From the IMG/VR virus record IMGVR_UViG_3300043777_000092, positions 1-59,008 of that record: 59,008 bases of DNA, one strand, 5' to 3'. Shown piece by piece: positions 3,042 to 40,904 of this stretch (its first letter is position 1; every line of letters begins with the position of its first letter). The translations under genes and the position numbers were made by a program. Origin of the DNA: a virus. A model generated the notes under the pieces. That model had not been told where the DNA came from. It ran no database searches and saw only the letters and a list, made by a program, of their open reading frames with translations.

Positions 3042-4334
3042 TCAGAATGGAATGTCTTCGTCCTTGGCCTCATAGGGCATCGCGGTCTGTACGGGCGGAT
3101 CGCGCTGAATGATTGGCGTCCCGTCCTCAAGCCATTCGTACTGTCCGATCTTCGATGCGCCCACGATGCGCCAACCTTCTTTCCCACTGCTCTTGGCCTT
3201 GTACGCCTCGACGGTGAAGGTGCAATCCCAGTGCGAGCGCGCAGCGAGGTCCAGAAGCTCGAACACGGTGTACGGGCGGGTTCCACCCACTTCCAAAGTC
3301 TTATTGTCGAAGACGAAGAAGTCCACCTTGTTCATTGACACGATGCCGTAGGGCGACCCACTCGCAGTCTTGAGCTGCTTGAACGCTTCCACCCGGCCCC
3401 AGTTCTGCGGAGGGATGACCGCCTTCGGCAACCCTGTGGCTGCCGAAGGCGGGGCCTGGGGTGCCGGAGAAGCGTTTGAGGCAGCCTGGGAAGGTTGCGT
3501 CGGGTTAGGCGGCTGCTTCGGCTGGCTGGACTGAGTAGCGGGCTTCGATTGCGGCTCCGGCGAGTCGTCCTCGTCTCGGTTGCCGCCAAAGTTGGCACGC
3601 GGGATCTTGGTAATGTCCATACCTGAGTCCTTCAGGTCGCGCAGGGTGGGAGTAAACCCCAAGGCGTCCACGGCCTTGTTGAACGAGTTCGTGATGGCGT
3701 GCTTGCGCACATTTCCGCGGTTGATGTCTGAAAGTGGGCGGTAGGCGTTGAGCTTGCGCGCCTTAACCCTGCCGTGCTGGTCGCACAGCGTTCCGTATGG
3801 CATAGCCTGCCGGCAGGATGGGCACCCGTAGAACGTGAACGCTACTCCGTGGAACGGGTGCCGCGTCGAGCAACTGCCCATCACGCGCACTTCGCGCCCA
3901 TCGGCGGTCAAGACGTCTACCCACTGGTCGTACTCGATGAAATGGCCAAGTTCGTCTTCGTCGCGCCGCTCGATCATTTCCTTGTCCGGCATCCAGAGCG
4001 CACCGGCCCAAGCGAGAATGTTCTGACAGACCCTTAAAGGCATGTACGCCTTTAGTTTAAGCAGGTCGTCCTCGGTCTTGGTCTTGTAGCTGGCGAACAC
4101 AAACAGGTCGCGTGGGTCCGTTTCGGACGCAATGAGCTTTACGATGCCCTTGAACTGCTTGATACGCCGTTCAGCAAGGTCAAGGCTCATTTCCGGGCTT
4201 AGAGGCTGTCCCGGCTGCGCAAGCACGGCAGAGGGCACCTGTGGGGCAGGAATGATGGCTTGGACGGCACTCTCGGGTATCACCGTGACGACTTTCTCGG
4301 TTACTTCTGCTTCAGCCTTCTTCCGGGGTGTCAT
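3042..4334 (-). CDS. Putative single-strand annealing or DNA-binding protein with SSB-type tail
   Basis: The 430-residue protein has three parts: an N-terminal half (about residues 45-240) with SLDLAERRIKQFKGIVKLI and the helical NVRKHAITNSFNKAVDALGF block; a low-complexity Pro/Gln/Ser linker (about 245-305); and a C-terminal region of about 100 residues (NWGRVEAFKQLKTASGSPYG) that may be an OB fold. It ends KDEDIPF, the SSB docking peptide. A Rad52/ERF-like annealing function would suit the neighbouring nuclease, but I cannot prove the family by eye. The ATG at 4334 has a GGAGGAAGA site inside the preceding minigene; an upstream ATG at 4355 is less likely. Confidence 0.6.
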   Translation of the reverse strand: MTPRKKAEAEVTEKVVTVIPESAVQAIIPAPQVPSAVLAQPGQPLSPEMSLDLAERRIKQFKGIVKLIASETDPRDLFVFASYKTKTEDDLLKLKAYMPLRVCQNILAWAGALWMPDKEMIERRDEDELGHFIEYDQWVDVLTADGREVRVMGSCSTRHPFHGVAFTFYGCPSCRQAMPYGTLCDQHGRVKARKLNAYRPLSDINRGNVRKHAITNSFNKAVDALGFTPTLRDLKDSGMDITKIPRANFGGNRDEDDSPEPQSKPATQSSQPKQPPNPTQPSQAASNASPAPQAPPSAATGLPKAVIPPQNWGRVEAFKQLKTASGSPYGIVSMNKVDFFVFDNKTLEVGGTRPYTVFELLDLAARSHWDCTFTVEAYKAKSSGKEGWRIVGASKIGQYEWLEDGTPIIQRDPPVQTAMPYEAKDEDIPF

Positions 4335-4542: not shown

Positions 4543-4718
4543 CGCTTGTGGGGCTCCACGCCGCTCCCGTCGTCCCAGCCGTCAAGTTGGTCGCCGGATT
4601 CGTACTGCCCCTCGGCCTCGTCGAAGCGCGTTCCCACTCGGATGAACGCACCGATGACGATGGCAAGCACTACTGATCCCGCAAGCGAGATCACGCCCCA
4701 CATCAGTAGGTGCTTCAC
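4539..4718 (-). CDS. 59-residue membrane protein, GTG start
   Basis: The product starts at a GTG (VKHLLMWGVISLAG) overlapping the preceding stop as GTGA, behind a GGGGGTGAA site. It has one strong membrane helix (about residues 6-28) and then a hydrophilic acidic tail (DEAEGQYESGDQLDGWDDG). It belongs to the chain of five overlapping minigenes downstream of the promoter near 5 kb. Function is unknown. Confidence 0.65.
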   Translation of the reverse strand: MKHLLMWGVISLAGSVVLAIVIGAFIRVGTRFDEAEGQYESGDQLDGWDDGSGVEPHKR

Positions 4719-4837
4719 GGCTTCACCCCCGGCGTAAACGCCACAGCCGCGAGCCACCCAGCCGCGATGAGGAACAGCACCCCAATCGCGCCCATCAGAT
4801 CGTTGCGGAATGCTGCGCTGCGAAAATAGGAGTTCAT
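4715..4837 (-). CDS. 40-residue membrane minigene
   Basis: The frame encodes MNSYFRSAAFRNDLMGAIGV followed by a hydrophobic helix (LFLIAAGWLAAVAF) and a short PGVKP end. An AGGAGG site five bases before the ATG lies within the preceding zinc-finger gene, and start and stop overlap the neighbours. One transmembrane helix is predicted. Function is unknown. Confidence 0.65.
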   Translation of the reverse strand: MNSYFRSAAFRNDLMGAIGVLFLIAAGWLAAVAFTPGVKP

Positions 4838-5045: not shown

Positions 5046-5447
5046 TTAGGATTGTACGGCGGAGATTACCACGGTGCTCAATTCACCATTGGCTTCGGCT
5101 TGATTGAGGGCTTCCTCGATCATATCGGTGGCAGGCTTCGACTCGTAAATCTCGTAGTCGCTGATCTTCTCGTCGGCGCATAGGATGCACCCGTCCGAGT
5201 CTGTCGCCCGGTTACCCCCGTGCATCTCGATCTCAGTGCGCCCAGGCACATCGAGGTGCGGCGTCGGCCGCTGGAAGCGGTTGCTCCAAAGCATTTTGAC
5301 GGGGTAGGTTCCTGCGGGGACCATCAAGGATGTAGGTTCCAAACAAAAAGAGACAGGGCGACCATCCAAGGAAATAGTTCCCGTGGTGGTCGCCCTGTAC
5401 TCTGAAGTCTCGGGCGCGTCTTTCGTCCGATTGACCTCGATTTGCAA
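5046..5447 (-). CDS. DUF5675-like protein
   Basis: This 133-residue protein has the layout of DUF5675: a strand-rich start, FCLEPTSLMVPAGTYPVKM (about residues 34-52), then VPGRTEIEMHGGNRATDSDGC (about 66-87) with the conserved His, Gly-Asn and Asp-x-x-Gly-Cys-Ile positions. The His/Cys arrangement recalls L,D-transpeptidase-like folds, but the activity of the family is not settled. Its place among membrane and peptidase-like genes suggests a cell-wall role. The start is TTG at 5447, three bases after the upstream stop. Confidence 0.65.
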   Translation of the reverse strand: MQIEVNRTKDAPETSEYRATTTGTISLDGRPVSFCLEPTSLMVPAGTYPVKMLWSNRFQRPTPHLDVPGRTEIEMHGGNRATDSDGCILCADEKISDYEIYESKPATDMIEEALNQAEANGELSTVVISAVQS

Positions 5448-32655: not shown

Positions 32656-33870
32656 TCAGGCGTAAGCCGATACGCCGTAAAGCCTTGCATGGCGCTTCTC
32701 AAAGCGCGTAATCCATGCCCCCTCAGTGAGATACTCGTCCCTGTACAAATCGGCGCCGTCCTTGATCACATCAATCAAGAGCTGCGTGTCGCGATTCTCG
32801 CCGTTACCGACAAGAGGCGCAAACTCGATTGAATCGAGGTCCAGAGCGTATGCTTCACCGCCCCAGCCCGCGGCCGCGACCGTGGGAGCGTTCTGCAGGT
32901 TCAGGTCGCGGGTGATCATGAAATCGCCGTGGCTCGTGACATAGCGGCTCACCTTGACGCCGTAGATGTCGTCGCCGGGGGCGAGGCGCAGCTTGTTGTC
33001 CGCCCACCAATCGAGAGCGGAAATGACGACGGGCGCGGCCACGAGGAGCTTTTCGGCACCCTCGTAGTATTGCCCGAACGCCTGCTGCGTGAAGGTGAGG
33101 AATGCGCCCTCGGTCAGCGTGGTGTTGCCGTTGTATACGTTCGTCACGATGCGGTTTTTGATGCCCATCGTGGTGCGAATCGTTCCCGGCAGCGCCAGGT
33201 TTTCCGAAGGATGCGACCAGAGTCCCGCCGATTCCATGTCTCGGCGGTGCTCCTCGAGCATCTTGCGCCGCTGGTAGAGGCGGTCGTTCGAGGGGCCGAA
33301 GAGGGCTTGCGCCACCTCCGACTTCGTGACCGACACCGGACGGCGGAAGATCTGCGTGTAGGAAATGAGCACGCTCTTGGCGGTCGTGCGCACCGTGCCG
33401 TAGGCCGCGCCTTCAGGAAAGGCGGGAGACAGGATGCGAATGTCGGCCGTCGCGCCGATTGTGTTTTGGCCGGCGCCGCCGATGCCACGGGTGAGGGTCA
33501 GCGTCGAGCCGTTGATGGCCGTGACCTGGGCCACTTCTTCAACCGTCGAGGAAGTGACTGCGTTCGGGAAGGCAATCAAGTCGTTGACGGCAAAGATGGT
33601 CGGATCGACAACGGAAATGCCCGTGGCAACCGAGCTGTAAGAGGTGGTCGCGTTCGAGACTTGGCCGAATACCGCGAGGTAGTCGTCCTCAATCCACTCG
33701 ACGCGGGCGGAGTTGGTGGGCTTTTTGCGATTCCCAATTTTCGTGATGAGCGTCAAAATCGGGGTCAAGCTCGGATTCAACAGTACGTCATCTTCCCCGA
33801 TAAACTGCCGTTTCTGGACCGTTTCGGTGTACGCCTGGTCGATGGACCGGGCCACTGTGATTGCTGCCAT
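32656..33870 (-). CDS. Major capsid protein, SU10/DUF5309 type
   Basis: The 404-residue protein has the marks of the SU10-type capsid family: an early TPILTLITKIGNRKKPTNSA segment, a strand-rich insertion (about 75-150), RTTAKSVLISYTQIFRRPVS (about 160-180), a long helix YQRRKMLEEHRRDMESAGLW (about 197-217) and an end with RDEYLTEGAWITRFEKRHAR. It should form the HK97-fold shell. It follows the acidic scaffold gene by 21 bases, the usual order. Length fits the family. Confidence 0.88.
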   Translation of the reverse strand: MAAITVARSIDQAYTETVQKRQFIGEDDVLLNPSLTPILTLITKIGNRKKPTNSARVEWIEDDYLAVFGQVSNATTSYSSVATGISVVDPTIFAVNDLIAFPNAVTSSTVEEVAQVTAINGSTLTLTRGIGGAGQNTIGATADIRILSPAFPEGAAYGTVRTTAKSVLISYTQIFRRPVSVTKSEVAQALFGPSNDRLYQRRKMLEEHRRDMESAGLWSHPSENLALPGTIRTTMGIKNRIVTNVYNGNTTLTEGAFLTFTQQAFGQYYEGAEKLLVAAPVVISALDWWADNKLRLAPGDDIYGVKVSRYVTSHGDFMITRDLNLQNAPTVAAAGWGGEAYALDLDSIEFAPLVGNGENRDTQLLIDVIKDGADLYRDEYLTEGAWITRFEKRHARLYGVSAYA

Positions 33871-33891: not shown

Positions 33892-35118
33892 CTACTGCTT
33901 GGAGCGTCCCACGTCCCTGAACAGCCGTGCCGCACGGCTTGAGCCGTTGGCTACGATCTGATCAATGAGTCTTCCTCGCGGGGCCCCTGCAGCTCCTCGA
34001 CTCGAACTCCCCGGTGGCGTTCTGCCGGCGGCAACCTTCAGCGAGCGCGTCTTTTCCGCTTCGCGCCCGCGACGTGATGCCTCTGCCAGCATTTTGGGAT
34101 CAACCCGCTCATTGCGAGCGAGCTTAAAGGCCATTTTCAGCTTGGCCACCCGGTTCTTGTATGGGTCTTTCGAGAAGACCGCATCCTTCAGTTCCGGGCT
34201 TGCCAATGCTCGGTTGATTGCACCTGTGTCCACCAGCTTGTCGAAGCCCGTGTACAGTTTGTCCGACAAGATTTCCTCGACTGCCGCTTCCTTCTCGGCT
34301 AGGTCTTGGCTCTTGGAGAAAAACGGGTATGCGGTTTCGACGGCTTTCCCGACGTTCGGCAGAATCCCGCTCGCAATTTCCATGCCCTTGAGCGTCATCA
34401 CCGTATCCATAGCCTGCGCCATCTCAAGCAGGTCTTCTGGCCTGCGATTGGCCATGAACGCGGCACCCTTTTCCTTGCCCCAGAAGAAATTCGCCATGGC
34501 TCCCATCATCGGGAGAATCGCGTCTTTCAGGACAATCGGGTTGATGTTCGTCTTGGAGTAGTTGCGGGCAGACTCTAGCTGCGCCGTGATTACTTCCTCT
34601 GGTGTCTTTGGCGCCGGGGCTTCCTTGGCCTCCGGTGCCTCTTCGGTGCCCTCTTCCTCTTCTTCCTCAGGTTCCTCTCTGGATTGCAGCTCGGAAATCT
34701 TCCGGCCGCGCTCCATGAGTTCCCGCAGAAGCGCCCTGTCCCCTGGATCGTTGGGATCCAGTTGCTTATTGAATTGCTTCGAGTAGTGCTCGGCTGCCTT
34801 GGCGTAGGCCGATTCCGCGAAGTCGGTTTCGAGGTCTGAGACGTCAAATTCCTCTTCACCAGATTCTTCCTCGCCCTGCTCTTCCTCGCTGGATTCCTCG
34901 GTGGGCTCGCCCTCTTCGGTCGGCTCCTCCGTGGTGTCCTCTACCCCAGATTCCGGCTCTTCCTCGACTTCGGTCCCACGGTCTGCCACTGAGGTATCCT
35001 CTGTGACCGGGGCCTCTGTCTCGGTGACGCCAAGATCGGCGCCAAGCAACGAGTTGATGGCCTCATCGCCCGATGCGGTTTCTATTGGATTCGCTGCTGG
35101 TGCTGTTGGAAACGGCAT
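33892..35118 (-). CDS. Acidic scaffolding-type protein
   Basis: The 408-residue protein has a long Glu/Ser/Thr-rich acidic N-terminus (about residues 30-95, for example EEEQGEEESGEEEFDVSDLE) and a helical remainder (KQLDPNDPGDRALLRELMER; KLKMAFKLARNERVDPKMLA), ending in a basic, glycine-rich tail. Acidic, helical proteins directly upstream of capsid genes are typically scaffolds that guide procapsid assembly and then leave. A 382-nt structured non-coding stretch precedes it. Confidence 0.7.
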   Translation of the reverse strand: MPFPTAPAANPIETASGDEAINSLLGADLGVTETEAPVTEDTSVADRGTEVEEEPESGVEDTTEEPTEEGEPTEESSEEEQGEEESGEEEFDVSDLETDFAESAYAKAAEHYSKQFNKQLDPNDPGDRALLRELMERGRKISELQSREEPEEEEEEGTEEAPEAKEAPAPKTPEEVITAQLESARNYSKTNINPIVLKDAILPMMGAMANFFWGKEKGAAFMANRRPEDLLEMAQAMDTVMTLKGMEIASGILPNVGKAVETAYPFFSKSQDLAEKEAAVEEILSDKLYTGFDKLVDTGAINRALASPELKDAVFSKDPYKNRVAKLKMAFKLARNERVDPKMLAEASRRGREAEKTRSLKVAAGRTPPGSSSRGAAGAPRGRLIDQIVANGSSRAARLFRDVGRSKQ

Positions 35119-35500
35119 ACTTCCCTCGCCCGCTCATCGCGGGAACTGCTCGTGGCCTGTCGCGCTCGTCGCGCGTTGGCCGAAACTTTGGCGGGAGGTC
35201 CCGCAGTTACCCGGCTAGGCGACTTAACCGACCCTTTCGGGCTGCGACTTACCCTGCCCTCATGCCTGGACGCCGGGGATTCCGGTAATTCAGGTCGGTT
35301 GCCATCGCGTCCCCGATACTAACATCGGAAGTAAGCGGCCGTGGCACGCTTCTTTGGACGGGTTACGCTTCCGAATCTCCACTCTGGCAATCCGACCCGG
35401 GTGCACCTACGAAACCGGAACGGCAGGACTCGCTCTTCTCAACCTCCCGGGGGTTTCCCCCGCGCTCGTTGGCCAGTCCAAATTCGGACTGGCCGAAACT
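35119..35500 (-). ncRNA. 382-nt non-coding stretch with many hairpins, possible structured RNA
   Basis: No frame here has a start codon and coding character. The minus-strand transcript can form several GC-rich hairpins: two with GAAA tetraloops (GGGGGAAACCCCC near 35453-35465, GCCCGAAAGGGT near 35231-35242), CCGAT-N-ATCGG near 35313-35328, and three just before the scaffold gene (GCGGGACCTCCCGC, CGCGCGACGAGCGCG, CCCGCGATGAGCGGG). A segment at its right end, CGCGCTCGT...TTGGCC...GAAACT on the plus strand, is repeated near 35161-35189. It may be a regulatory leader, a free RNA or a packaging signal. I could match no known class; tmRNA was ruled out. Confidence 0.45.
35471..35494. repeat. Dispersed palindrome, copy 6 (one mismatch, extended arms)
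   Basis: The core at 35474-35489 is AGTCCAAATTCGGACT, one base off the 16-bp consensus, extended by GGCC on both sides so that the arms GGCCAGTCC and GGACTGGCC pair perfectly. It lies just past the stop of the 63-residue gene at the start of the non-coding stretch. Confidence 0.85.
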
Positions 35501-35692
35501 CTAGGTGTTGATCGTGACCGGCTGCGGGTCAATCGACTGGACTTCGGTGATGTTCGTGGCCGTAACTCCCGCCACGTCGGCTATCGCCGCGGTCACCGCC
35601 GCGTTCGGTGTCGCCGCGCGAACCACAGCGTACTGCTGCTGCCCGTTCGCGTAGTAGCACACCTTGTACCAGTTCCCCATGTCTGTTCCCAT
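35501..35692 (-). CDS. Small paralogue B upstream of the scaffold gene
   Basis: The 63-residue product begins MGTDMGNWYKVCYYANGQQQ and contains AATPNAAVTAAIADVAGVTA, a short strand-helix fold. The ATG at 35692 follows AGGAGGCTTC. Its GNWYK start and Ala-rich helix align with GNFYK and the helix of the neighbour at 35701-35940, so the two look like tandem paralogues. They may be head decoration or minor structural proteins. Confidence 0.65.
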   Translation of the reverse strand: MGTDMGNWYKVCYYANGQQQYAVVRAATPNAAVTAAIADVAGVTATNITEVQSIDPQPVTINT

Positions 35693-35700
35693 GAAGCCTC

Positions 35701-35940
35701 CTACTGATAGCAGGTACTCGCGTACAGGTCTTGCTGCTGCACGTTCTGGATCGAAAGAAACTGGCTGCCGGTGAGCCCGATGTCCGCGGCCAGGGCTATA
35801 ACCGCTGCGGCTGCGGTGGCCGCATTGACCAGCGCGAAAGCGATCGCGCTCACAAGGGTGGGAGGGTTCGTCGTTCCCTGTGCGTTCGGCGTCACGATCT
35901 GGTACGTGATCTTGTAAAAGTTGCCGGCGATTGTGGCCAT
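35701..35940 (-). CDS. Small paralogue A upstream of the scaffold gene
   Basis: The 79-residue product begins MATIAGNFYKITYQIVTPNA and has an Ala-rich helix (FALVNAATAAAAVIALAADI) and a GSQFLSIQNVQQQ end. AGGAGGGGGC precedes the ATG. It is similar in layout to the next gene. It lies 16 bases after the 3' end of the tRNA gene. Confidence 0.65.
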   Translation of the reverse strand: MATIAGNFYKITYQIVTPNAQGTTNPPTLVSAIAFALVNAATAAAAVIALAADIGLTGSQFLSIQNVQQQDLYASTCYQ

Positions 35941-35956: not shown

Positions 35957-36034
35957 TGGTTGCGGGGGTCCGATTTGAACGGACGACCTCGAGCTCATGA
36001 AGCTCGCGAGCTAACCGGGCTGCTCCACCCCGCG
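35957..36034 (-). tRNA. tRNA with CAU anticodon, initiator (fMet) type
   Basis: The 78-nt gene folds perfectly: acceptor CGCGGGG/CCCCGCA, D stem GAGC/GCTC, anticodon stem CGAGC/GCTCG with loop TTCATGA, T arm GTCCG-TTCAAAT-CGGAC, and an encoded ACCA end. The C1-A72 mismatch and the A11-U24 pair are the hallmarks of bacterial initiator tRNA. It lacks the usual three consecutive G-C pairs at the base of the anticodon stem (here A-U, G-C, C-G at 29-31/39-41). It sits between the deoxyhypusine synthase-like gene and small structural genes in the late operon. Confidence 0.92.
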
Positions 36035-36057: not shown

Positions 36058-37143
36058 TCATTTGCCAAGCACATACGCGAAAATCAGCGGCGCGACGATA
36101 GCCGCGTCCGACTCGATGACGAAGCGCGGCGTTTCGGGCTGGAGTTTCGCCCAAGTAATTTTCTCGTTCGGGACCGCACCGGAGTAGGAGCCATAGCTTG
36201 TGGTGCTGTCCGAGATCTGAACGAAGTAGGACCAATAGGGGACCTTATCGTCCATTCCCATGTCGATCTTAAGCAAGGGAACAGCGCAAATGGGAAAATC
36301 CCCGGCAATTCCCCCACCAATTTGAAAGAACCCAACACCTGCACCTTTGGCCTCTTTCTTGTACCATTTGCAGAGTTCCAGCATGTAGGCGATGCCGCCC
36401 TTGACGCACTCCGGCCCGTGGATTTTCTCTTTCAAGATCATGGACGCGAACATGTTCCCGAGCGTGGAATCCTCCCACCCAGGGACAAAAATCGGCAGCT
36501 CTTTCTCTGCGGCGGCGAGCATCCAAGAATGTTTAGGATCAATCTCGTAATGATCTTCAAGGCTCCCGCTACGCAGAGCACGATACAGATACTCATGAGG
36601 GAAATAAGAAAGTCCGCCAGCATCGGCTTCCTCCCAATACTCTGCCACCACGTCTTCAATCAGCTTCATCGCCGCTTTTTCAGGGATTGCTGTGTCTGTG
36701 ACCCGAGGCAACTCGTTCTCGAGTAGCAGCTCCTCATCGTCTGGCGTAAGGTCGCGATAGCCCGGAATGCGTAGATACTTGGAATGGGCCACCAAGTTGA
36801 AAACGTCTTCTTCGAGGTTCGCGCCCGTGCAGCAGATTGCATGGACCTTCCCTTTGCGGATCATCTCCGCAAGCGTGATTCCCAGTTCGCCCGTGCTCAT
36901 CGCGCCGGCCATAGCCAGGAACATCTTGCCGCCCTTGTCGATCAGGGCGCAGTAGGCTTCGGCGGCTTCGTGGAGCGTGGCGGCGTTGAAATGCTTGAAC
37001 GTGTCGGTGATGAACTGACCCACGGGACCGAGGCCCTTGTGCGTCTCAAGGTCCAACGGGAGGGTGTCGCCGTGGCCGGGGAGAAGCGTTTCCCGGGTCA
37101 GTCCCTCTGGCGCGTTCTTGCCGAATTGGGTCTTGGTGGGCAT
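36058..37143 (-). CDS. Deoxyhypusine synthase-like enzyme
   Basis: The 361-residue protein matches deoxyhypusine synthase along its length (human enzyme 369 residues). It has FLAMAGAMSTGELGITLAEM and CCTGANLEEDVFNL (about 75-115), FVPGWEDSTLGNMF near 220, the NAD-site-like GVGFFQIGGGIAGDFPICAV near 275, and GSYSGAVPNEKITWAKL, where Lys333 corresponds to the catalytic lysine in the WGK motif. The eukaryotic enzyme moves the aminobutyl group of spermidine to eIF5A; bacterial homologues act in polyamine chemistry such as homospermidine formation. It starts directly after the previous stop (TAGATG). A phage copy is unexpected. Confidence 0.85.
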   Translation of the reverse strand: MPTKTQFGKNAPEGLTRETLLPGHGDTLPLDLETHKGLGPVGQFITDTFKHFNAATLHEAAEAYCALIDKGGKMFLAMAGAMSTGELGITLAEMIRKGKVHAICCTGANLEEDVFNLVAHSKYLRIPGYRDLTPDDEELLLENELPRVTDTAIPEKAAMKLIEDVVAEYWEEADAGGLSYFPHEYLYRALRSGSLEDHYEIDPKHSWMLAAAEKELPIFVPGWEDSTLGNMFASMILKEKIHGPECVKGGIAYMLELCKWYKKEAKGAGVGFFQIGGGIAGDFPICAVPLLKIDMGMDDKVPYWSYFVQISDSTTSYGSYSGAVPNEKITWAKLQPETPRFVIESDAAIVAPLIFAYVLGK

Positions 37144-37625: not shown

Positions 37626-38246
37626 TTAAGCGCATTCGAGGCATTGGTTTCTCCCCCACGCTAGAGCGATCCGGTACTGACCGATTTCAAAAATCTCCGG
37701 CGCTTGGATTTCGTGCCCGCCTATTCTAAACCATCTGCAAAAATCTTCCACATCGAGTGACCACTGGTGATCTCCCCCCGAAATATCTCCGCCCAAGTCT
37801 CCATCAATCGGATGCGAGATTAGCACTGTCTTCGCGTGCGGGAGCCACTTTTTCACGAGGCTTACCGGATCGTGCATGTGCTCAAGAATCTCGCACAGGA
37901 TCAGCAGGTCAACCTGCGTGGGTTCAACGTCCTCAATCTCCGCTTGGCAGTAGAGCGCAAGGTATTTCCCCCACCGCTCGTTGGCCTTCTGAATGGCGAG
38001 AGGATGGCAATCGAATCCGCCTACACTGCAGGCCCAAGCAAGCTGCCCGGAAATGTCGCCGGTGCCGCAGCCAAGTTCCAGCACCGTGCGTTCACTGCGA
38101 CCGAGCGACGCCAGCGCGTCCTGGGCGCACTTCACGCTGCGCTTGATGCGGTCGGCCATGAGGGGATGCTCGGTGTAGATGCGCACAGGGTCAAGAGCGT
38201 GGTGGGCAACGCCTTCCTTTGCGTTCCTGTGCTTGAGGGCGATCAA
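37626..38246 (-). CDS. Class I SAM-dependent methyltransferase
   Basis: The 206-residue protein has motif I VLELGCGTGDISGQLAW (about residues 52-68), an acidic turn at FDCHPLAIQKANERWG and the motif IV-like QVDLLILCEILEHMHDP (about 110-127). These are typical of small-molecule or protein methyltransferases of the Methyltransf_11/23 kind. The TTG at 38246 overlaps the HNH stop as TTGA; an ATG at 38336 would overlap the HNH gene by 94 bases. The substrate is unknown. Confidence 0.75.
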   Translation of the reverse strand: MIALKHRNAKEGVAHHALDPVRIYTEHPLMADRIKRSVKCAQDALASLGRSERTVLELGCGTGDISGQLAWACSVGGFDCHPLAIQKANERWGKYLALYCQAEIEDVEPTQVDLLILCEILEHMHDPVSLVKKWLPHAKTVLISHPIDGDLGGDISGGDHQWSLDVEDFCRWFRIGGHEIQAPEIFEIGQYRIALAWGRNQCLECA

Positions 38247-38788
38247 CCGGCACGCTCGCAGAGAAACGGGATACCGTTCAGCTTTCTGGTTTTGTGGGGG
38301 CAGATGCCGCCGTTCATTCGTTTGCCCCAGTTGCACTGCATGCAGAGAACCTGGAAACCAGGTGGGTATCCATGACGTTTAAGCCAGAAGTAAATCTTCG
38401 ACGCTCCGATTTCCTTCCGATGTTTGTTCCCACCATTTTCGATGTGATCCAATGTCAGGAAAAGTCTTTCTATTTCTCCGCAGCACGCGCAGACATAGCC
38501 ACCGTAGGCCAGAAAGGCTTCGTCTTTCACCTTCCGATAGCGGACCATCGTAAGGGCATTGTAATGCGCTCTGTTTTCGTGCTTCCACTTGGCAACTCGC
38601 TCACGGTTCTTCTGATGCCATCGCCTCGTTCGATCAGATTGTTCGTGCCTGTGAGTCCGAACCCAATTCGTAGAAGCTGCGCGAGCGCATGGCTTGCAGT
38701 AGTGCGACAGCCCGTCTTTCATAGACACATTGGAGTGAAATTCTGAGAGCGGGAACTCCTGCTTACATTTGGTGCATTTCTTTGTCAC
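38243..38788 (-). CDS. HNH-type endonuclease
   Basis: The 181-residue protein begins KKCTKCKQEFPLSEFHSN with a second cysteine pair (HYCKPCARA), a zinc-finger start frequent in phage HNH proteins. A basic helix follows and then VCACCGEIERLFLTLDHIENG and FQVLCMQCNWGKRMNGG, the HNH core. It overlaps the radical SAM stop by four bases and the methyltransferase start by four, so it has been inserted into a coupled operon without visible damage. Confidence 0.85.
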   Translation of the reverse strand: MTKKCTKCKQEFPLSEFHSNVSMKDGLSHYCKPCARAASTNWVRTHRHEQSDRTRRWHQKNRERVAKWKHENRAHYNALTMVRYRKVKDEAFLAYGGYVCACCGEIERLFLTLDHIENGGNKHRKEIGASKIYFWLKRHGYPPGFQVLCMQCNWGKRMNGGICPHKTRKLNGIPFLCERAG

Positions 38789-39612
38789 ATCAACTCCGGG
38801 AGTGCCTCGTTATTTATGATGAACCGCTCCACGCCCCTGTTGAAGGAACATTGTAAGCATCTTTGGCACAGTTTGGGGACTATTTTTTCGGCAATCTCCC
38901 GGTGTTTTGCACTCAGCCAAATCGACTTAAACGACTGTTGGTTACAATTTCCAAAAACCAAATCCCTCCTATCGCAGCAAGCGCAGACACTTCCATCGGC
39001 CGAAATTACCGCGTTCGTGAAGGCCGAGTAGCAGGCGTCAAATTCCCGCTGGTCGAACACGTCCCGGTACCGCTTGCCCGTCAGGTGGACCACCACATTG
39101 TACGGAGGCGAAATCTCCTTAATCTCCTGCTGAATTTCGAGCCAGTGTCGCGTAAGACGTACCGGGGTTTCCTCCGAGAGCGGCCGGAATTGAATGTAAT
39201 CCACGCCAGCGGTAGCAGCAAAATCAAGCACGCGGCGAATACTTTCCCCCGAAGAGTTCGCATCAGCGCAAATGTAGGCAAGGCCCACCTCCGGCGATCC
39301 GTTCGTGCGGCTGTGGCACAATCCCTTGATGTCTGCCAACACAGTTCCAAATTCTCCTTCCCGCGTTCCGTGCATTTCCATGTGTTCTTTTTCATTCGAG
39401 GCATCAAGGCTAACCCTGATGTGGTCCGCGAGAAGAAGAGAAGAGAGCCACCTACGGATAAAGCCGCCATGCGTGACAAGCCACGTCCTAAAACCCATAT
39501 TTGCCGCTGCCCGCAGGATCAAACCAAACTGCGGATGCAGCGTAGGCTCGCCTCCGCCACTTAGGTTAATGGTCTTCGTGTCCATTTCCTTCAGGTCATG
39601 GAGCACTTCCAA
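38785..39612 (-). CDS. Radical SAM/SPASM protein, C-terminal body
   Basis: The 275-residue frame, from a TTG at 39612, holds most of a radical SAM enzyme: TINLSGGGEPTLHPQF (the GGE motif that contacts SAM), IRVSLDASNEKEHMEMHG, and a SPASM-like C-terminal cysteine set (VCACCDRRDLVFGNCNQ; KLCQRCLQCSFNRG). The upstream coding character continues to 39687, and the CxxxC motif lies in the same frame beyond a TAA at 39690-39688. As read, translation from the proper start would stop inside the cluster motif. The stop overlaps the HNH start by four bases. Confidence 0.7.
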   Translation of the reverse strand: MEVLHDLKEMDTKTINLSGGGEPTLHPQFGLILRAAANMGFRTWLVTHGGFIRRWLSSLLLADHIRVSLDASNEKEHMEMHGTREGEFGTVLADIKGLCHSRTNGSPEVGLAYICADANSSGESIRRVLDFAATAGVDYIQFRPLSEETPVRLTRHWLEIQQEIKEISPPYNVVVHLTGKRYRDVFDQREFDACYSAFTNAVISADGSVCACCDRRDLVFGNCNQQSFKSIWLSAKHREIAEKIVPKLCQRCLQCSFNRGVERFIINNEALPELM

Positions 39613-39687
39613 GGCGACGTTGTATGGAAGTGTGTGCGATTTTTCAGCAATAGTCGCGCGACGAAAATCAAGCGGTTCGCACCAAAG

Positions 39688-39828
39688 TTAAGGGCATGCG
39701 TGCGAGCAAAGATTTGTCAGGTCAATGCTGGCCCTTATGGGACCGACCTGTTCACCGGCCAATGCCGAATCTATCCGATCAAAAAAGCGCAGGACGCGTA
39801 AATCCGAAAATCTTTCGCTCGTACTCAT
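39688..39828 (-). pseudogene. N-terminal fragment of the radical SAM gene, ended by TAA in the cysteine motif
   Basis: The ATG at 39828 overlaps the glycosyltransferase stop (ATGA) and starts MSTSERFSDLRVLRFFDRID, then reaches IDLTNLCSHACP followed by TAA and then LWCEPLDFRR in the same frame. Removing the six bases TAACTT would give CSHACPWCEP, the normal CxxxCxxC iron-sulfur motif. A six-base insertion has therefore probably inactivated the gene, unless the stop is read through. The total span, 38785-39828, is 348 codons. Confidence 0.65.
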
Positions 39829-40904
39829 GCCTGGGCGCACCCCCTTTCCGGCTGCTTCGCCACGGTATTCACGCGAACCGCGAGCAAGAGTTCCGCGAGT
39901 CTTCGCATAAGACTATGGTTTTTGTGGACCTCTTCACAGCCTGCTTGAGCTATTCGTGCTCGCTCCTGATCTCGGTCATCACTTACCCACTCACGAAGCA
40001 ACTGCGCGACATAGGGAATGTTCGTCGGGCTGTAGTAGACGAGATGGACGCCCGATTTCAAAGGTTCCATGTTGCGCTCGGCGCCGCGGTTCTCGGGGAG
40101 CATTGGGGTTAAGAGAAAAGTCCCGCACGCCATCGTTTCGTAAATCTTGCTCACAAGAAGCTGCGAGAGCGCCGGAAGGTTAAAGAAGACCTTGATCTGC
40201 CGGGTGTTCGACACCAGCAGCCGAATCGAGTCCTCCAAGTGGTAGCCGTGCAGGTCCGACACCGAGCACATCCCGCAGCGGATCGGCGGGTGATTGTGAT
40301 TGCTCAAGGACCGCAGGAAGAGCTGGCGCTTTGGGTACATGAGGCCGAGGAAGGCGATGTCGAAGCATTTCGCCTGCTGCACTTCAAATCGCGCGTCCTC
40401 TGCGGAGTTTCCACGCATCGTAACAAGACCATGGGGCTTGAACATCTCCGTATCCACTCCAAACGGCATCCAGTGCGAGCGCCCTTTCACGAACGGTTCC
40501 TGATCGTGAAACTCCGCGTCCTGAATCGCCGGGAAGAACCACTCGTCGCCCACCCACTTCAAGACGTCTAGGTCGATGGTGTAGTCCTCGCGGTTGCACG
40601 ATTCGTGCAGCCAGCACGCTTTCGGAACCGGGACGTGCTTCCAGTCGTACTTGCCGTATACGAGGTCGATCCACGGGGAAATGTGCTCGGGGCCGCTCAC
40701 GATGATGGCGTCACAGGTCTTGAGCGCGTCTACCTTCGGAGCGCCCGCTTTCACCATCTCGATCATGGGCTTCGAGGCTTCGCGGGCGGTGGGAAGCGGG
40801 CCTTCGAGGACAAAGTGCCCCATCCTGCGCAGGGTCTTGATGATCCCCATTCCCATATTCCATCCGCTTGTGGGATCGTTGGAGTGAAACACCGCTATCT
40901 TCAT
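39825..40904 (-). CDS. CgeB-like glycosyltransferase (GT-B type)
   Basis: The 359-residue protein begins MKIAVFHSNDPTSGWNMGMG and has a middle MPFGVDTEMFKPHG segment and a C-terminal KIYETMACGTFLLTPMLPEN, which is the donor-site motif (E-x7-E-like with YExMACG) of the glycosyltransferase-1/CgeB group. CgeB of Bacillus modifies spore surface; here the acceptor is unknown. It starts and ends in ATGA overlaps with its neighbours, so it is part of the coupled cargo operon after the portal gene. Confidence 0.75.
   Translation of the reverse strand: MKIAVFHSNDPTSGWNMGMGIIKTLRRMGHFVLEGPLPTAREASKPMIEMVKAGAPKVDALKTCDAIIVSGPEHISPWIDLVYGKYDWKHVPVPKACWLHESCNREDYTIDLDVLKWVGDEWFFPAIQDAEFHDQEPFVKGRSHWMPFGVDTEMFKPHGLVTMRGNSAEDARFEVQQAKCFDIAFLGLMYPKRQLFLRSLSNHNHPPIRCGMCSVSDLHGYHLEDSIRLLVSNTRQIKVFFNLPALSQLLVSKIYETMACGTFLLTPMLPENRGAERNMEPLKSGVHLVYYSPTNIPYVAQLLREWVSDDRDQERARIAQAGCEEVHKNHSLMRRLAELLLAVRVNTVAKQPERGCAQA

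Follow-up and report, generated by a model that had tools for sequence, protein, structure and literature searches.

The last ~65 nt of a 382-nt non-coding gap in front of a predicted scaffold protein gene in a 59-kb virus record (analyzed at its full length and referred to below as the window) contain two minus-strand hairpins, each with a G-A-N-G-A loop closed by a C-G pair, and comparison with related phages supports a conserved hairpin element at the start of the scaffold gene. These C-GANGA-G hairpins, which are conserved in the relatives, went unmentioned in a preliminary description of this DNA; the signal in the gap is confined to the last ~65 nt and does not belong to a single 382-nt RNA. 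From the comparisons described below, the GANGA hairpins probably serve the scaffold gene as a translational operator to which a protein of the phage or its host would bind.

The gap (35119-35500, minus strand) is bounded by the stop of a small ORF (35501) and the ATG of the scaffold candidate (35118). The order along the minus strand is a deoxyhypusine-synthase-like gene (36058-37143; PF01916), tRNA-Met (CAT; 35957-36034), two small ORFs (35701-35940 and 35501-35692), the gap, the scaffold candidate (33892-35118), and the major capsid protein gene (32656-33870; PHROG 1328). The two small ORFs are adjacent paralogs, with an alignment score between the pair of 81 versus 51 for the best of 1,000 shuffles. 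The preliminary description had held that the gap has no gene and that it precedes the scaffold gene, and both points agree with the ORF limits on the minus strand. Codon scores in all six frames of the gap (-0.094 to -0.342) were under the mean for coding pieces of the same phage (0.166; range, -0.108 to 0.363), with a single plus frame (-0.094) just within the low tail of the coding pieces, and the two small ORFs scored 0.31 and 0.34; a protein-coding gap was therefore rejected. The gap is real and non-coding. An extra tRNA was also rejected, as the tRNA search made no call inside the gap and, like Rfam, gave only the nearby 35957-36034 gene outside it, and so was a terminator, since the sole site was at chance level and on the opposite strand. 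Mimicry of 16S rRNA through short matches was likewise considered and set aside. The scaffold gene is predicted as such from its position and composition: the product is acidic and helical, and the gene lies directly upstream of the major capsid gene. Searches with it found no match in PHROG, Pfam, or PDB and no relatives in the phage collection, and its AlphaFold model is helical but poor (mean pLDDT, 56.4; pTM, 0.31).

Hairpin 1, CGCGC-GACGA-GCGCG (35161-35175, minus strand), has its loop centre ~51 nt upstream of the ATG and is extended by GGCC/GGCC pairing of 35178-35181 with 35154-35157. Hairpin 2, CCCGC-GATGA-GCGGG (35129-35143, minus strand), ends 10 nt upstream of the ATG and adjoins a Shine-Dalgarno-like sequence, GAGGGAAG (35120-35127, minus strand), which lies between the hairpin and the start codon; the pairing probability of hairpin 2 in context is 0.69.

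Relatives were collected by capsid and scaffold searches of IMG/VR, with the major capsid protein as the capsid query, which gave eight contigs in six lineages. Capsid identity to the window is 91% for L001, 84% for L002, 67% for L003, L004, and L005, and 68% for L006; the other lineages are L017 and L035. L004 and L005 have identical ORFs and were merged into the L003 lineage, so that the window together with L001, L002, L003, L006, L017, and L035 makes seven lineages. Distant capsid relatives (L008, L011, L012, L028, L029, and L030) were kept outside these seven; the L030 capsid match covers only 55 residues. A search of the genome contig collection found no capsid relatives, and a search for portal relatives returned only the L001 contig. 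For L006, the scaffold start was taken as the ATG at 4725 and not the longer ORF start at 4662.

The surroundings of the scaffold gene differ among these lineages. tRNA genes lie upstream in the same region in L001 (4617-4692) and L003 (4604-4678), both tRNA-Met (CAT) as in the window, and in L002 (4346-4423), where the type is unassigned; the distance from tRNA end to scaffold ATG is 70 nt in L001 and 47 nt in L003. By eye, L006 has an apparent degenerate tRNA at about 4557-4627, and a similar GGGGC...GCCCC hairpin precedes the tRNA or tRNA relic in L003 (4545-4595) and L006 (4480-4532). L002 has an 85-aa ORF at the gap position. Similar-looking ORFs to the deoxyhypusine synthase family gene, a gene for which a search of the phage collection found no match, occupy the same place in the head region in L001 and L002. 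Genes for a methyltransferase, a radical SAM/SPASM protein, and a glycosyltransferase at 37626-40904 adjoin the head genes of the window and are possibly a modification cluster; similar-looking ORFs occur in L003, L006, L017, and L035.

All seven lineages have copies of C-GANGA-G around the scaffold start, usually two per lineage and 26 to 63 nt apart. Relative to the ATG, they lie at -53 and -21 in the window, -55 and -24 in L001, -52 and -26 in L002, -28 and +13 in L003 (with a third at +38 that has no stem), -58, -21, and +16 in L006, -43 and +13 in L017, and -59 and +4 in L035. Hairpin 1 is conserved in L001, whose identity to the window is 78% over the 70 nt preceding the ATG versus 65% over the gene's first 300 nt. 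The loops of the 15 copies are GACGA (12), GAAGA (2), and GATGA (1). The GANGA loop is constant, and the stems vary by compensatory substitutions; constancy of the loop and closing pair comes partly from how sites were chosen, whereas the outer three pairs were not used for that choice. Pairing is good at every position in the 11 upstream copies (9 to 11 of 11). The four copies in coding regions pair only over their inner two to four pairs (0, 1, 3, 4, and 4 of 4, counted from the outside in); they place a copy within the first codons in four of the seven lineages, inside the stretch covered by a starting ribosome.

The preliminary description had proposed a covariation analysis with related phages, and covariation was indeed found, for the last ~65 nt only. 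In alignment A4 (13 copies, L035 not included, hairpin 1 among them), the covariation score was 0.408 versus 0.149 in shuffles, standard pairs made up 83.1% of pair cells versus 66.1%, and 10 cells were changed on both sides versus 4.2, each value reached by 0 of 500 shuffles. Of two further measures on these 13 copies, "further pair types" (9) was reached by 19 of 500 shuffles, and "pairs with change on both sides" (3) was not above shuffles, 293 of 500 being as high. When the register was slid, the covariation score fell to 0.067 or less, leaving the true register the best by far. With L035 added (15 copies), three of the five pairs show several compensating pair types.

The hairpins are also concentrated at this gene. 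On both strands of the seven loci, the interval from -120 to +45 around the scaffold start makes up 0.44% of the sequence scanned, and it holds 9 of the 15 C-GANGA-G hairpins that have 4 or more pairs and 7 of the 10 that have 5 or more; the motif was defined on the window, L001, L002, and L006, and counts that include them are post hoc. A site with at least 3 pairs is found at six of seven scaffold starts versus 0 of 108 other ORF starts, these controls being mechanical ORFs of at least 150 aa on the coding strand, not curated genes. Of the six remaining sites with at least 4 pairs, three (two in L003 and one in L017) are coding-strand sites within scaffold genes, in which GAC GAG codons are common. 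The bare 9-mer shows no enrichment in the window (6 versus 4.4 expected), and it is found elsewhere in the related records (28 matches in seven records); it is therefore the hairpin at the scaffold start, and not the word, that is special. L035, found after the motif was defined, is the sole clean test: its site at +4 is a hairpin of 4 bp, and another, at -59, sits atop an 8-bp outer stem. With a model built without L035, the +4 copy scored 19.7 bits and ranked 8th of 29 hits; the same model gave a 20-bit chance match in the distant L011, away from any scaffold gene, and single hits of this 15-nt model are for that reason weak evidence. No copy was found at the scaffold start in L008, L011, L012, L028, L029, or L030 (the scaffold genes of L028 to L030 were not located).

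Several of these observations point to an operator acting on translation: the stems differ while the loop stays, hairpin 2 lies close to the ATG and copies sit in the first codons in other lineages, and a site at +4 as well as one at -59 is present in L035, the late addition. In this view, the gap ends in the scaffold mRNA leader, which would carry tandem G-A-N-G-A hairpins as an RNA operator, with one copy close to the first codons or the ribosome-binding site and the second further upstream. A protein that recognizes the loop, a putative GNRA-like pentaloop, would bind both copies and thereby alter how often ribosomes initiate on the scaffold mRNA, the simplest effect being a block; we infer that RNA is the active form, translation the controlled step, and repression the effect. 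Against such an operator stand the weak stems of L003 and L017, where the pairing probability of the upstream copy is 0.02 and 0.00, respectively, the chance that the coding-region copies partly reflect a conserved Ala-Thr-Ser, and the distant capsid relatives with no copy at the scaffold start. The preliminary description had listed a translation-control leader among its candidates, and of the three it is the one that stands, though only for the last ~65 nt by the start codon, with their covariation and conservation.

A comparable arrangement is known from phage T4, whose gp43 represses its own mRNA by way of a hairpin with a conserved loop, ~40 nt upstream, and a second stretch that lies at the ribosome site (PMC3014915). 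Like the present element, the T4 and RB69 gp43 operators have, ahead of the start codon, a hairpin whose loop is conserved and whose lower stem varies, together with the ribosome-site stretch (PMC3014915); the gp43 loop is UAAC, however, the gene encodes DNA polymerase, and there is one hairpin, whereas here the loop is GANGA, the gene is a scaffold gene, there are usually two hairpins, and the binder is putative. A conserved-loop hairpin near the ribosome-binding site is thus found in both.

The ligand is presumably a protein, perhaps the scaffold itself as a head-assembly feedback. The scaffolding protein of phage P22 reportedly autoregulates its own synthesis, in a study from 1985, and would be a case of a scaffold gene under post-transcriptional feedback; the P22 gene is not known to share sequence with the present element, whose RNA site comes from comparison. 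Self-binding is attractive because of this reported control of P22 scaffold synthesis and because of the T4 gp43 layout. More tentatively, the GANGA hairpins might be read by free scaffold, outside heads, which would shut off its own mRNA and so make the element an RNA-level assembly sensor; we regard this version as possible but doubtful.

Apart from a translational operator, the hairpins could stabilize or process the mRNA, in that the tRNA would be cut out and 5' stem-loops would shield the scaffold mRNA from RNase E, with no binder needed. The free variation of the stems would suit such a role, and the leader directly follows the tRNA 3' end in L001 and L003. It is nevertheless unlikely, given that the GANGA loop and C-G closing pair are constant in 15 of 15 chosen copies (partly a product of site choice), that some copies lie inside the coding region, and that no tRNA was found in L017 or L035.

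Distinctly less likely is a boxB-type role, in which an N-like antitermination protein would bind the hairpins and carry RNA polymerase through the head genes. The loop of phage lambda nutL is GAAGA. Like the boxB of lambdoid phages (P22 and lambda), the present element is a 15-nt hairpin with an about 5-bp stem and a pentaloop, and GA(N)GA fits, from its sequence, the fold described for the P22 boxB loop GACAA, in which the third base is extruded from an otherwise GNRA-type loop (PMC12550061). Unlike a nut site, the element has tandem copies centered on the start codon of a late gene, some of them in the coding region, and it has no boxA: within 60 nt upstream, the best boxA match in each of the seven lineages was no better than in random pieces, which makes antitermination less likely.

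The motif could also be a DNA or coding feature, that is, repeated GCGACGAGC arising from conserved codons or a DNA-binding site. The coding-region copies do read Ala-Thr-Ser in four lineages, and the near-expected number of plain 9-mers in the window would fit, but the upstream copies are untranslated, and a constant center with covarying arms is the reverse of a DNA operator; we consider this reading very improbable.

Another candidate of the preliminary description was a structural RNA, by which the 382-nt gap in its entirety would be one discrete structured RNA of no known class; about eight hairpins had been noted on the minus strand. The whole gap does modestly beat shuffles (z = -2.03 on the minus strand, with 2 of 100 shuffles as good), but it does so equally on the plus strand (z = -2.07), and the middle of the gap (35191-35470; 280 nt, ends excluded) has no excess folding, with z = -0.51 on the minus strand (86 of 300 shuffles folding as well) and -0.61 on the plus strand; the ends, namely, the palindrome hairpin at 35471-35494 and the leader hairpins, therefore account for the modest signal. 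In a minus-strand scan of 1,473 segments of 120 nt, those wholly or largely over the gap span the 3.7th to 75.4th percentile of z; z reaches -7 elsewhere in the genome, and the gap is not exceptional. The strongest minus-strand local folding is at 5289-5408 (z = -7.0), 3369-3488 (z = -6.7), and 2489-2608 (z = -5.5). Both GAAA tetraloops that had been described are in the sequence (GGGG-GAAA-CCCC, 35449-35461; CCC-GAAA-GGG, 35232-35241), and the middle has a long helix with one bulge. As had also been stated, the gap matches no known class: across the window and six loci, only tRNAs outside the gap reach the Rfam gathering score, and at E values up to 10, three leaders including the gap gave only the known tRNA and chance-level matches. 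Searches with the gap middle against seven related records, 50,697 phage records, and 72,556 plasmids returned only short chance pieces (best E values, 0.09 to about 1), a 20-mer taken from it has no exact match in IMG/VR, and the middle is absent at the same place in relatives; L035, which was not among the records of these homolog searches, has its own 259-nt gap before the scaffold ATG, compared with that of the window by eye only. Despite the z score of the full segment, the helix, and the GAAA loops, a structured non-coding RNA over the whole gap is not supported by stability or conservation and is most improbable, as its middle lacks excess folding, an Rfam match, a counterpart in relatives, and any homolog usable for covariation. 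For a packaging or replication site, also suggested at the time, there is no evidence, and GC skew has no switch at the gap.

At the upstream end, the gap contains, as described before, a copy of a dispersed palindrome (core, 35475-35490), extended by GGCC on both sides (35471-35494). This perfect 16-bp palindrome, AGTCCAAATTTGGACT, has six copies in the window (2514, 6657, 16933, 31380, 35475, and 37197; five exact and one with one mismatch) versus 0.16 expected, and it looks like a phage-wide operator. The copies at 2514 and 31380 adjoin gene starts, and there are two copies in L013, one of them exact and the other with a single mismatch. A target-site duplication was rejected, as the flanking GGCC is unique, by eye, to the copy at 35475. 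The duplicated module reported at both ends of the gap fared less well: both ends do share the 11-mer AGTTTCGGCCA exactly, along with shorter matches in collinear order, and these make up a weak partial repeat of the leader (AGTTTCGGCCA ... ACGAGCGCG; 35450-35497, minus strand), but the end-to-end alignment is marginal, with 29 of 2,000 shuffles as good. A reasonable guess is that the rest of the gap is a leader duplication that has decayed and received inserted sequence. The gap middle is non-coding, window-specific filler, and the ~300 nt other than the leader are best explained as an insertion or relic that is peculiar to the window and has no known role.

Operators in the form of hairpins close to start codons are already known. 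Neither a GANGA-type loop at a scaffold start nor a conserved RNA site for scaffold feedback was found in the literature searched, and the former has no Rfam family. Phages need scaffold and coat protein in proportion, and the covarying element offers a concrete site at which such control may be tested; it may also help to annotate the leaders of scaffold genes in uncultured phages.
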